From the NCBI RefSeq assembly GCF_002386345.1, contig NZ_CP023507.1:1736001-1800000 (forward strand): 64,000 nucleotides of DNA. Reading direction: 5' to 3'. The position numbers and the translations under genes are program-made. The notes under the pieces are model-generated. The model had not been told where the DNA came from and did not search any database. It was given only the letters and a program-made list of their open reading frames with translations. Below are positions 5,755 to 15,109 of the stretch, in pieces. This stretch comes from Streptococcus oralis (GTDB lineage Bacteria > Bacillota > Bacilli > Lactobacillales > Streptococcaceae). How positions within the stretch are numbered: the first letter of the stretch is position 1; each line of letters begins with the position of its first letter.

Positions 5755-5801
5755 ATTCTCTCCAATTGAGGCTGTTCATCATCACAGCCACAGCACGGAC
5801 T

Positions 5802-5807
5802 ATTATA
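5802..5807 (-). promoter_or_regulatory. azlCD promoter -10 element
   Basis: Minus-strand TGTTATAAT, an extended -10 element, about 50 bases before azlC. No clear -35 box. Confidence 0.5.
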
Positions 5808-5824
5808 ACATATTCAAAGAAGAG

Positions 5825-5846
5825 AAAAAAGTTTCGGATTCGAAAC
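5825..5846 (-). terminator. Rho-independent terminator of the lipoprotein gene
   Basis: GTTTCG-gatt-CGAAAC (5831-5846) followed on the minus strand by TTTTTTCTC. It ends the transcript of the lipoprotein gene that stops at 5879. Confidence 0.75.
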
Positions 5847-5878
5847 CTATTGCCAGAAAAAGTGCTGAAGAGGAAGCA

Positions 5879-6487
5879 TCATGGATACATGAGAAATTGA
5901 TCCACTCGGATAGTATACTTATCGGTTTCTGTTTCTGTAGCATATTTATTTTCTGTTGGATAGACATCAACCCAGAGTTCCCACTGTTGTCCTTTTAACT
6001 TGACCTTGTAGCGATAACCGTCATCATAGATGCCTACTGTCTCAGTTGTCATGGACTGGTAATCTGGGACTTCTTCAAGCTCTTTTTTTACAGTCTGGGA
6101 TAAGTTATCGAGCAATGCTTGCTGCTCAGCTTTTGAGGTAACGGGAAAATAAGCCGCTACTGTTTCCAAACGATGCGATTTTGAAAATGTAAAGGTCGCT
6201 CGGCCTGGATAGCCTTTCAAAGTAATCTGCTCATAGTGATAGAAAAGGCGACCTGTTTTATAGAAATACGGATCTTCTGCACGCCAAGTATCACGATAAG
6301 CCGTTTCCTTTTCTTCCTCCACCTCGCTTGCCTTTCCAAATACTTCTTCAACAGATTTAGGAAACATACCGAACGAAAGGGATTCAAACAAGACCAGTTG
6401 TGTCTTTTTGATATTCTGGCAAGCTGATAAAAGCATGAGTAAAGCTCCAAGAGCAAGCAGACTACTGATTATTTTTGTAAATCTCAT
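5879..6487 (-). CDS. Putative lipoprotein of unknown function
   Basis: A 202-aa secreted lipoprotein: signal peptide with LSAC lipobox and Cys23 when started at the ATG at 6487. An upstream in-frame ATG at 6538 would place non-signal residues in front and is rejected. The mature part is rich in aromatic and charged residues and ends in alternating strands (YRYKVKLKGQQWELWVDVYP). I do not recognise a named family with confidence. It has its own terminator downstream and one just upstream, so it is probably monocistronic. A surface-anchored role follows from the lipobox only. Confidence 0.75.
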   Translation of the reverse strand: MRFTKIISSLLALGALLMLLSACQNIKKTQLVLFESLSFGMFPKSVEEVFGKASEVEEEKETAYRDTWRAEDPYFYKTGRLFYHYEQITLKGYPGRATFTFSKSHRLETVAAYFPVTSKAEQQALLDNLSQTVKKELEEVPDYQSMTTETVGIYDDGYRYKVKLKGQQWELWVDVYPTENKYATETETDKYTIRVDQFLMYP

Positions 6488-8671: not shown

Positions 8672-8701
8672 AACACATTCCTATCTTTTTGTCTGTTTAC
8701 T

Positions 8702-8707
8702 ATTATA
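8702..8707 (-). promoter_or_regulatory. tsaB operon promoter -10 element
   Basis: Minus-strand TATAAT about 31 bases upstream of the tsaB start codon. The -35 region (TTCCCA) is poor. Confidence 0.5.
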
Positions 8708-8872
8708 CTACAAAAGCCAGCGCATGGGAATTTTCTTTGTTTTGAAACAAAAGAGGCCTGCCACTTAGACAAGCAATTCTACACAAAAAATTTAAAAAAG
8801 TTATATCTTTTTTGAATAGAAAAGTGAACAAGGAAATTGAAAGGTTCTTTGTAAAAAATTTGGATCATGCAT

Positions 8873-9013
8873 TTATGTTTCAACTCGATTTTCGATTTGA
8901 GAAATCATCGTCATAACAATAAAGATAGCACCTAAAAATAGAAAAAGTCCATCCCATCTATCAAGACGAGGTGGATTTTCTGTATATTTAGATGAATAAT
9001 TGACTTTAGGCAT
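8873..9013 (-). CDS. Tiny single-span membrane protein, unknown function
   Basis: A 46-residue reading frame that starts with ATG inside the last codons of the gene upstream (8-bp overlap) and ends at TAA. Residues 1-20 are polar (MPKVNYSSKY...), 23-38 form one hydrophobic span (LFLFLGAIFIVMTMIS), and the tail is polar. The stop-start overlap with the 9006-9221 gene argues for coupled translation and so for a real gene. I do not recognise a family. Its setting, next to small RNA genes and opposite rnjA, is the place where S. pneumoniae carries the cib bacteriocin/immunity genes as I recall, so an immunity-like role is possible but unproven. Confidence 0.6.
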   Translation of the reverse strand: MPKVNYSSKYTENPPRLDRWDGLFLFLGAIFIVMTMISQIENRVET

Positions 9014-9221
9014 TTAAACCAAAGTAGAAAACGAACCAGACAACATAGGTGACCAGGAGAAGAAAAATTGAATAGAGCGTCACAAAAGCAAGCTTCCAAA
9101 GGAACTTTGTTTTGCGGTGTTCCAGATGCACAAACAGGGCATTCCCCCCATAGACACAAGCTACAAAGACTACAAACATCAAGAGGCGAACCCCTACTGC
9201 AAATTCAAACAAACTAAACAT
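9006..9221 (-). CDS. Small two-span membrane protein, unknown function
   Basis: A 71-aa protein with two hydrophobic stretches (about residues 10-28 and 44-67) joined by a short basic loop (HLEHRKTKFLWK). A strong AGGAGG ribosome site stands seven bases before the ATG, which supports translation. It overlaps the following 46-aa gene by 8 bp, making a two-gene unit of membrane microproteins. It has no double-glycine leader, so it is not itself a class II bacteriocin precursor. No named family recognised; small membrane proteins of this shape include bacteriocin immunity factors and toxin-like peptides. Confidence 0.65.
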   Translation of the reverse strand: MFSLFEFAVGVRLLMFVVFVACVYGGNALFVHLEHRKTKFLWKLAFVTLYSIFLLLVTYVVWFVFYFGLNA

Positions 9222-9261
9222 TCTTAATCCTCCTTCTGGTATTCCTTTTTTATTTAAACTG

Positions 9262-9291
9262 TTGACAATGTTGGTCTATCAATGTTAAAAT
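9262..9291 (+). promoter_or_regulatory. Promoter of small RNA unit 1
   Basis: TTGACA (9262-9267), 18-bp spacer, TAAAAT (9286-9291) with TG one base upstream (extended -10). Predicted start near 9298. Confidence 0.7.
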
Positions 9292-9297
9292 GTAATT

Positions 9298-9445
9298 CAA
9301 CATTGGTAGGAAAATCAGGTTGAGTCGTTGACTCTTCGGGTTGCAGTGCTATCCCTGAAACTTTGGTTTCTAAAGAACTGAAATTGCGATTGAACAATTC
9401 GCCCCCAGTGTTAGATGGCTCTTGACTTCGGTCAGGAGCTTTTTG
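9298..9445 (+). ncRNA. Putative small RNA 1
   Basis: About 148 nt between a good promoter and a terminator. AACATTGG near the 5' end can pair, with two G-U pairs, with CCAGTGTT at about 9405-9412, closing the molecule. The terminator is GCTCTTGAC-ttcg-GTCAGGAGC (9418-9439) plus five T. It has no ribosome site followed by a credible reading frame. Its inside does not share the block found in units 2 and 3. I do not recognise an Rfam family. Confidence 0.65.
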
Positions 9446-9457
9446 ATGCTTTTAAAG

Positions 9458-9486
9458 TTGATTCCCTCAGTAAGTTATAGTAAAAT
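9458..9486 (+). promoter_or_regulatory. Promoter of small RNA unit 2
   Basis: TTGATT (9458-9463), 17-bp spacer, TAAAAT (9481-9486). Predicted start near 9493. It begins only 13 bases after the terminator of unit 1. Confidence 0.7.
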
Positions 9487-9493
9487 ATAAATA

Positions 9494-9618
9494 TTGAGAG
9501 GATAACGTAGGGCGACTGGTAACAGAGCGTTCAAAGGTACCAACTTCTGGTACGGGTGTGGGACTGCCCTCAGCTTTGAGCTGTAAAGACCCCTGACTAC
9601 CATTGGTCCTCTCTTTTT
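9494..9618 (+). ncRNA. Putative small RNA 2
   Basis: About 125 nt. The 5' end GAGAGGA (9496-9502) pairs with TCCTCTC (9607-9613), followed by TTTTT, so the terminator stem is also the closing stem of the whole RNA. Inside are a GTACC/GGTAC hairpin (from about 9537) and CAGC-tttga-GCTG. It shares TGGTnACA then TTCAAAGGT, 13 bases apart and at the same offset, with unit 3. No coding potential seen. No known family recognised. Confidence 0.72.
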
Positions 9619-9701
9619 GCTTACTCTTAAATTAAGTGCTTGTCTTTACCTTTTAGTAAGCGCTCCACTCCATGCTATTTCTACATCGTTATACTTATAG
9701 A

Positions 9702-9731
9702 TTGACTTCTTAGCCTCATAGATGATAGAAT
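9702..9731 (+). promoter_or_regulatory. Promoter of small RNA unit 3
   Basis: TTGACT (9702-9707), 18-bp spacer, TAGAAT (9726-9731) with TG one base upstream. Predicted start near 9738. Confidence 0.7.
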
Positions 9732-9737
9732 TAAGTA

Positions 9738-9861
9738 AAGGCTGAGATCGAGTTTGATTTGGTGACAAGTCATTCAAAGGTTGCGATGCATTCGCTTCAG
9801 GTAGAGGTGCTGCCATCTGGACTGCTCCAGGAAAATCCCCGAGTTTTGTCTCAGCCTTTTT
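9738..9861 (+). ncRNA. Putative small RNA 3, relative of unit 2
   Basis: About 124 nt. 5' AGGCTGAGA (9739-9747) pairs with TCTCAGCCT (9849-9857) and runs into TTTTT, the same closed architecture as unit 2. TGGTGACA (9760-9767) and TTCAAAGGT (9773-9781) line up with unit 2. The first hairpin (GCGA/TCGC) and second hairpin (CTGGA/TCCAG) have different bases from those of unit 2 at the same places, which suggests conserved structure rather than conserved sequence. Confidence 0.72.
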
Positions 9862-9865
9862 ATTT

Positions 9866-9892
9866 GCTCTTGAGATTTCTCAAGAGCTTTTT
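9866..9892 (+). terminator. Second strong terminator after small RNA 3
   Basis: GCTCTTGAGA-tt-TCTCAAGAGC (9866-9887) followed by TTTTT. A back-up terminator that isolates the small RNA array from rpoY-rnjA. Confidence 0.8.
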
Positions 9893-10102
9893 CTTTTTTC
9901 AAAGATATCATTCTGCCCCAACCATCTACACCAACGATTAATGAAACTAGAACTGTATTCTTCCTCAAACCTACTATCTCCATAGATTCCCCCTTTAATT
10001 ATAACACCTAAGCGCTCTCCGACCAAATCCTACCTGTCTTTTTGCTCCTCCTTCCCCTCCCGACTTTCTCCATTTCCGTCTTTTACTAATTTTTCATTTT
10101 GT

Positions 10103-10110
10103 GGTATAAT
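10103..10110 (+). promoter_or_regulatory. rpoY-rnjA promoter
   Basis: Extended -10 element TGGTATAAT (TATAAT at 10105-10110) without a good -35. It implies a leader of about 105 nt before rpoY. The stretch 9893-10102 is pyrimidine-rich and holds nothing else I can support. Confidence 0.55.
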
Positions 10111-10220
10111 TGAAATAATTGTAACGAATCAAGGTCAATCTAGACACAAAATGGAATGAAATCAAGCAAATCTCTGCTAAAAGTTTGGAATAAGCTGACC
10201 TGTAAATAGAAAGGAACTAT

Positions 10221-10454
10221 ATGATTTACAAAGTTTTTTATCAAGAAACAAAAGAACGTAGCCCACGTCGTGAAACAACACGCTCACTTTACCTAGACAT
10301 CGATGCCAACTCAGAACTTGAGGGCCGTATCGCTGCTCGCCAACTTGTCGAAGAAAACCGCCCAGAGTACAACATCGAGTATATCGAACTCTTGTCTGAC
10401 AAATTGCTAGATTACGAAAAAGAAACTGGCGCTTTCGAGATTACGGAGTTCTAA
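10221..10454 (+). CDS. rpoY: RNA polymerase epsilon subunit RpoY (DUF1447)
   Basis: A 77-aa protein matching the small auxiliary epsilon subunit of firmicute RNA polymerase: [19 protein letters not shown] at the N-terminus and an acidic tail. It binds core polymerase; in other firmicutes it is dispensable. One base separates its stop from the rnjA start, the conserved rpoY-rnjA pairing. Confidence 0.93.
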
Positions 10455-14998: not shown

Positions 14999-15109
14999 TT
15001 TTGTCCTTTCCCTTAAACGACACAAAAACAGTCAAAACTCCAAAGAAGTGCAGGACAAAAAAGCCTGCAACATCCATGAGCTTTGACCATCATTTCTATT
15101 GCTTTTATT

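Follow-up and report, generated by a model that had tools for sequence, protein, structure and literature searches.

The three tandem RNA genes at 9262–9892 of the Streptococcus oralis window (the whole 64,000-nucleotide stretch of DNA analysed here) are, on sequence comparison, three types (U1, U2 and U3) of one RNA family and not local sRNAs. Other copies of the family often lie antisense inside a gene for a predicted RNase, so the window RNAs may be collected antidotes. We consider that the RNAs are, on balance, probably antitoxins of the predicted PBECR4 RNase, and that the window array would be a set of orphan antitoxins. The window alone does not reveal the link to the PBECR4 domain.

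The array showed three consecutive units on the plus strand, each with a promoter, a folded RNA and a terminator, as the initial annotation had described. The U1 promoter (9262–9291; −35 TTGACA, spacer 18, extended −10 TAAAAT) is conserved in related copies. It is followed by the U1 RNA body (9298–9416, putative start), closed by the stem CAACATTGG/CCCAGTGTT, and by a terminator hairpin with a T-run (9417–9447, hairpin 9417–9440), which was identical across the eight aligned rows of the array locus. The U2 promoter (9458–9486) has TTGATT, a spacer of 17 and TAAAAT. The U2 RNA (9493–9619, putative start) has a closing stem, a GNRA-loop hairpin and a GGGT..ACCC core, and it ends in its own closing stem and a T-run. 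The U3 promoter (9702–9731) has TTGACT, a spacer of 18 and an extended −10 TAGAAT, and the U3 RNA (9738–9863, putative start) comprises the closing stem AAGGCTGAGAT/GTCTCAGCC, four inner helices and a T-run. A second terminator hairpin with a T-run lies behind U3 (9866–9897, hairpin 9866–9887) and has a counterpart in many conjugative-element copies.

The pattern scan gave 10 promoter-like sites, where shuffled sequences gave 5.8 ± 2.5, and 6 terminators, where they gave 3.1 ± 1.9. The single-sequence folding z values were modest (−2.3 for U1, −1.0 for U2 and −2.8 for U3), with U2 the weakest. Since the scans were barely above the shuffles and the single folds were modest, comparison was needed to decide. 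The promoter was conserved in the conjugative-element copies of U1 (−35 0.87, −10 0.98, spacer 0.69) and U3 (0.89, 0.98 and 0.66). The same columns in the U2 copies gave 0.72, 0.94 and 0.75; these lower promoter values arise from a TTGACN one base further upstream (spacing 18) in 6 of 8 copies. At the level of sequence, conservation settles the reality of the units.

The array had been described as holding no credible reading frame, which needs correction. Three relic frames on the minus strand match the linker of the conjugative-element polyvalent ORF by tblastn. The relic under U1 (9445–9203) contains stop codons and matched the L115 ORF at 68% (E 3e-32). The relics under U2 (9622–9476) and U3 (9873–9688) had 86% identity to the L119 ORF and 74% identity to the L117 ORF, respectively. 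In the window array, the RNAs were kept while the surrounding ORF was lost.

The nearest gene to the array is a 77-aa gene at 10221–10454, which we take to be rpoY, followed by rnjA. The tsaB-rpoY intergenic gap (window 8672–10220) ranged from 280 to 3167 bp among the best 80 of 259 named loci, and this variable length suggests that it may be an insertion hotspot. Two further short frames, at 8873–9013 and 9006–9221 on the minus strand of the window, contain hydrophobic stretches. The sole Rfam match of the window at the gathering score is Spd-sr37 (RF02419, 87.9 bits) at 15035–15101 on the minus strand; the gene downstream of it looks NUDIX-like by eye.

The units belong to no named family, in agreement with the initial annotation: Rfam gave no match at the gathering score over 9262–9892. 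A search of 8700–10300 with Rfam 15 had no match below E 1.5, and the abiF RNA (RF03085) was absent too. No Rfam match at E ≤ 1 covered the units on the plasmids L173–L176 and L180. A known RNA family was rejected on these null results over the window and plasmid units.

The readings of the RNAs as strain-specific or as pneumococcal were not supported. By blastn, the family was found in 112 of 284 Streptococcus genomes, mostly as single units and in many places, and much of it is on mobile elements. Good matches in the S. oralis genome itself were confined to the window array. Units were carried by 4 of the 80 best rpoY loci (of 259 found), namely two of S. oralis, one of S. oralis subsp. tigurinus and one of Streptococcus sp. 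M334, and both records titled S. pneumoniae lacked them. We take rnjA of strain D39 to lie at 132.3–149.6 kb. A word search in the text of pneumococcal RNA papers did not find the locus tags that we presume for the rnjA region. The accessible part of the D39 sRNA table (Slager 2018) has no entry within that interval. A phage origin of the RNA was rejected after 0 matches in 50,697 phage records.

Covariance models were built for U3 (R1), U1 (R2) and U2 (R3). With stricter filters, the U3 model found 61 of 279 genus genomes, some of the weaker matches being U2-type, and the U2 model found 12 of 395 genomes of the order, in 2 of 80 genera. R1 matched the window U2 with 32 bits (E 4e-6). R2 matched the window U3 with 39.4 bits, partly through the common terminator hairpin, and by eye U1 also shares a GG-n-CUG-CC core. 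The scores of the window U1 with R2 (172 bits) and the window U3 with R1 (141.5 bits) are high by construction, as are those of every model on its own rows: the window units and, for R3, also pMV158, U2 of pSRD478, L175 and L176. The matches on pSRD478 by R1 (134.9 bits to U3, 27.2 bits to U2) and R2 (93.7 bits to U1) are independent. This rolling-circle plasmid carries U1-U2-U3 in tandem, in the window order, without PBECR4.

Nineteen plasmid records had a match, including pMV158. The carriers include small rolling-circle plasmids, conjugative-type plasmids and large S. salivarius plasmids. R1 reached only E 0.046 on pMV158, whose link to the family rests on blastn (E 3e-11), with a core of about 90 nt common with the window U2 at 79%. 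Positions 196–380 of pMV158 (L173) combine the U2-type core with an extended −10 site and a terminator hairpin, and may be an unannotated small RNA. We take this segment to lie between ssoA and dso, with ssoA (CS-6 and RSB motifs) presumably just upstream of the element. The candidate RNA is absent from the PLSDB gene table, which holds no RNA genes. On pRGF00031 (L180), a U2-type unit (minus strand) and a U1-type unit (plus strand) are divergent at 1653–2288 and adjoin an Rfam SpF66 sRNA (86 bits).

The pMV158 match raised the idea of a single-strand origin. ssoA, ssoU and ssoT are also folded elements on rolling-circle plasmids and ICEs, and the family could in principle be a lagging-strand origin or another hairpin of a single-stranded element. 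The RNA is indeed found on rolling-circle plasmids, in the same orientation as rep where this is annotated, and within each type of element its orientation to the mobility genes is mostly constant, although the U1 copy of L150, at least, departs from this. However, none of the five control plasmids pUB110, pC194, pT181, pTA1060 and pE194, used as carriers of known sso types, matched R1, R2 or R3 at E ≤ 0.1. The family also has a conserved double-strand promoter and terminator, and a single-strand origin leaves the joint exchange with PBECR4 (below) unexplained. It was dropped on the failed control matches and the PBECR4 linkage, and we regard any role as a single-strand DNA element as improbable.

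The pairing of the 5′ and 3′ ends noticed earlier in each RNA is a real closing stem, which covaries, as do the inner helices. The structure alignments held 22 copies of U3, 22 of U2 and 17 of U1, with near-duplicates left out; L157 was dropped from alignment A1, and L141 and L156 from A2. The consensus structures had 31 (U3), 34 (U2) and 40 (U1) pairs, of which 18, 15 and 15 were changed on both sides. The proportion of pairing cells was 95.7% for U3, 96.0% for U2 and 97.6% for U1, above all 500 shuffles and all slid versions, the structures being derived from the same alignments. The further pair types of U1 were equalled by 18 of 500 shuffles.

Sixty regions of up to 18 kb each, chosen by us from blastn matches in the genus genomes, were fetched to analyse the surroundings of the copies. 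Nested copies were carried by ICEs and by conjugative plasmids in Streptococcus and related bacteria. Many copies occupy the interval between relaxase/MobC genes and topoisomerase III/TraG genes, which were named by eye and from plasmid annotation. The nested RNA is encoded antisense, in the linker immediately ahead of the PBECR4 domain, and the polyvalent protein that contains this domain can reach 2300 aa or more. The linker sequence is unrelated between RNA types, and the antisense of the −10 and −35 translates as HFTIN...KS. Four ORFs were scanned with Pfam. PBECR4 (PF18813) directly followed the linker in all four (E 1e-20 to 1e-25), and Toprim, ArdC or zincin-like domains were found elsewhere in these ORFs. 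The invariant His in HLxG of PBECR4 was present in all 34 aligned domains.

A protein-only search for PBECR4 was performed in 274 genomes, counting domains in an open frame of at least 500 aa among the matches listed and leaving out one half-domain of G209. Each of the 94 long-ORF PBECR4 domains counted among the matches listed, from 73 genomes, had the RNA next to its N-terminal end, encoded on the opposite strand. For 92 of them this was seen from the coordinates, with a median gap between hit edges of 89 nt (range 52–177) among the matches listed, and the remaining two, both in G135, have a U2-type RNA by blastn. Several of the 73 genomes hold two or three RNA/PBECR4 copies, and G047 and G113 were counted on R1 matches with E 6e-4 at the expected place. 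The RNA also lies beside PBECR4 in L255, from a different genus. The search showed a near-obligate pairing of the RNA with long-ORF PBECR4 among the matches listed.

Solo PBECR4 genes had a credible RNA at 0 of 37 loci tested. R2 was left out on L230, L233 and L234 in this control, and loci L258–L261 stood outside it. On the other solo loci R2 gave only short weak matches: L250 (E 0.28), L254 (E 0.99) and L273 (E 0.008, 64 nt). No RNA was found at L262, a 619-aa frame with one internal stop from outside the genus. The only PBECR4 of the window genome among the matches listed is a solo gene of 259 aa (L235, C1:658040–658501; L258 is the same gene), and no family RNA lies near it. The array is therefore without a present target in its genome. 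On the Bacillus rolling-circle plasmid pTA1060 (L283), a solo gene at 5763–6161 is annotated as a PBECR2 nuclease fold.

The RNA type tracks PBECR4 far more than the remaining protein. On the tree of the PBECR4 region, the RNA type changed 4 times (minimum 2, shuffled mean 15.3), and 0 of 200 shuffles were as low. When the tree was built from the first 330 residues of the same proteins, 11 changes were needed (1 of 200 shuffles as low), and the last 390 residues gave 12 (9 of 200), both still below most shuffles; L129 was kept in this tree analysis despite its wrong domain window. Across PBECR4, RNA identity and protein identity correlated at 0.65, 0.73 and 0.62 in consecutive windows of 60 aa. 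The value was 0.36 immediately N-terminal to the RNA, 0.28 in the window spanning the end of PBECR4 and 0.15–0.16 further on, and the backbone windows were still above permuted labels (at most 4 of 300 permutations as high). The correlation analysis was made without L129 and L131, and the domain profile without L129. Because the RNA adjoins PBECR4, linkage may account for some of the co-inheritance, although the correlation falls off asymmetrically.

A swap was seen among L124, L132 and L170: the first 300 residues were 97–98% identical, the RNAs 48–60%, the PBECR4 windows 23–62% and the sequence beyond 77–93%. A counter-example is the pair L115/L116, in which the RNAs are 94% alike and PBECR4 only 38–42%. 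The trees and the swap together show a pattern in which the RNA and PBECR4 have been exchanged jointly as one cassette.

Copies in all 35 ORFs of more than 700 aa spanning the RNA in the fetched regions were exactly antisense to the ORF. The RNA could then be an antisense regulator that base-pairs to the polyvalent-gene mRNA and reduces expression of that gene, with the free copies acting in trans. An antisense location is what a type I toxin–antitoxin system, in which the RNA pairs with the toxin mRNA, would have. Covarying structure and divergent free copies argue against mRNA pairing: the stems still pair through changes on both sides, and plasmid copies such as that of pMV158 share just the core of about 90 nt with the window U2. 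The RNA type also tracks the PBECR4 domain, which lies outside the overlap of the RNA. We consider antisense regulation unlikely.

Orphan copies bear on what the RNA does. Of the 69 copies in the fetched regions, 44 had PBECR4 sequence on the opposite strand at a distance of at most 400 nt, and 25 had none. Five of the 44 are in chromosomal arrays (L113 and L114), counted by a relic of about 50 aa; two sister arrays, of G116 and G119, contain a PBECR4 fragment of about 50 aa. The orphan sites are IME-like elements, chromosomal loci and rolling-circle plasmids. The orphans of L162, L164 and L168 (about 8950–9100), from three genomes, are U3-type and lie between a GntR-like regulator gene and ylxM-ffh, and those of L158–L160 are U2-type and lie beside an NRAMP-like gene and carB, all these genes being named by eye. 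A guide or cofactor, bound by PBECR4 to activate or direct cleavage instead of inhibiting it, would show the same pairing and co-inheritance as an antitoxin. Retention of the RNA without PBECR4, seen in 25 of 69 copies, makes sense for an antidote and would be surprising for a cofactor, and we give the cofactor role a low probability.

Pairs were kept at 94.8% in orphan or broken-ORF rows (31 rows, lowest 79%) versus 97.8% in intact-ORF rows (30 rows). This kept pairing in orphans argues for function. Eight rows of the array locus were compared; two are identical throughout, and 2 positions distinguish the window row from that of L004. The mean difference was 0.134 in the U3 body versus 0.013–0.055 in the promoter, terminators and flanks, and the U3 body has two very different alleles between near-identical promoters and terminators. 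U2 of L007 has a different second half, again between a near-identical promoter and terminator. This allele pattern is expected if RNA specificities are exchanged, and recombination among donors alone could also yield it. The U1 body differed by 0.047 versus 0.042 for its promoter, the U2 body by 0.069 versus 0.078, and the flanks by 0.043–0.055. Since the U1 and U2 bodies have diverged roughly as much as their promoters, the rates carry no signal of purifying selection.

The window array could be decaying relics. It might even be functionless debris of several ICE insertions, as its antisense frames are relics with stops, the sister arrays retain the PBECR4 fragment and the RNA bodies evolve no slower than the flanks. 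Against this, each of the three units retains its promoter, fold and terminator though the ORF is gone, and the U1-U2-U3 order recurs on a plasmid. We think that functionless debris is improbable.

PBECR domains are predicted BECR-fold RNases in large polyvalent proteins thought to be transferred with DNA, according to Iyer et al. (2017, PMC5512222). The protein partner here is such a domain; the passages on these domains name no RNA partner, and "small RNA" and "noncoding" occur 0 times in the main text. Under the antitoxin reading, PBECR4 would act as an RNase and would either be transferred or be produced in the course of conjugation. The folded RNA would bind its cognate PBECR4 and block the RNase, following a type III-like logic of RNA antitoxins. 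Chromosomes, small mobilizable plasmids and IMEs with the RNA and without PBECR4 may gain protection against the RNase of resident or incoming ICEs. U1, U2 and U3 held together would cover three PBECR4 specificities. The toxicity of PBECR4 is itself predicted, and solo PBECR4 genes do without the RNA.

The type III systems (ToxIN, CptIN, TenpIN and AbiQ) are alike in that a structured RNA is the proposed direct inhibitor of a ribonuclease. As reported for CptIN (PMC4627078), RNA and toxin co-vary here too, with L115/L116 as the counter-example. The type III antitoxin consists of short (34–50 nt) repeats transcribed with the toxin, with a terminator between. In contrast, we found a single multi-helix RNA of about 125 nt without short tandem repeats, driven by a promoter of its own and encoded within the toxin ORF on the other strand. 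The toxin domain is PBECR4 and not a ToxN/Kid-like fold, and the ToxN/AbiQ families were absent from the four ORFs scanned (Pfam, E ≤ 0.01). The system was not filed as type III because it lacks the short repeats in the toxin transcript and the ToxN-type toxin. AbiF/RCd22 of Clostridioides difficile is a similar case, with an antitoxin RNA against an RNase-fold protein on a mobile element; as far as the accessible part of PMC12373285 describes it, this RNA has its own promoter and terminator and acts in cis and in trans. The same part places that RNA (RF03085) upstream on the same strand, with a HEPN-fold toxin, unlike the arrangement here.

We found no description of the RNA family, of the way it nests within the toxin ORF or of the orphan arrays in the literature searched, most subscription journals being outside it. 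We suggest, with less confidence than in the antitoxin role itself, that they may represent a new kind of toxin–antitoxin system. In such a system, the RNA antitoxin would be nested antisense in the coding sequence of its own RNase toxin, and RNA and RNase would form one swapped specificity cassette. Chromosomes, IMEs and small plasmids including pMV158 would stockpile orphan RNAs of several types, some in tandem arrays with exchanged bodies, as a heritable and updatable immunity against conjugation-borne RNases. Conjugative elements may then deliver the toxin-bearing protein with their DNA.

The RNA is a candidate partner for the PBECR4 domain of conjugative-element polyvalent proteins, which makes the function of PBECR4 testable, and a candidate RNA in the long-studied plasmid pMV158. 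Intergenic "sRNA" arrays should be viewed with caution, as they may be immunity genes or relics and not regulators. The finding suggests that bacteria and hitch-hiking plasmids may collect RNA antidotes against conjugative elements.
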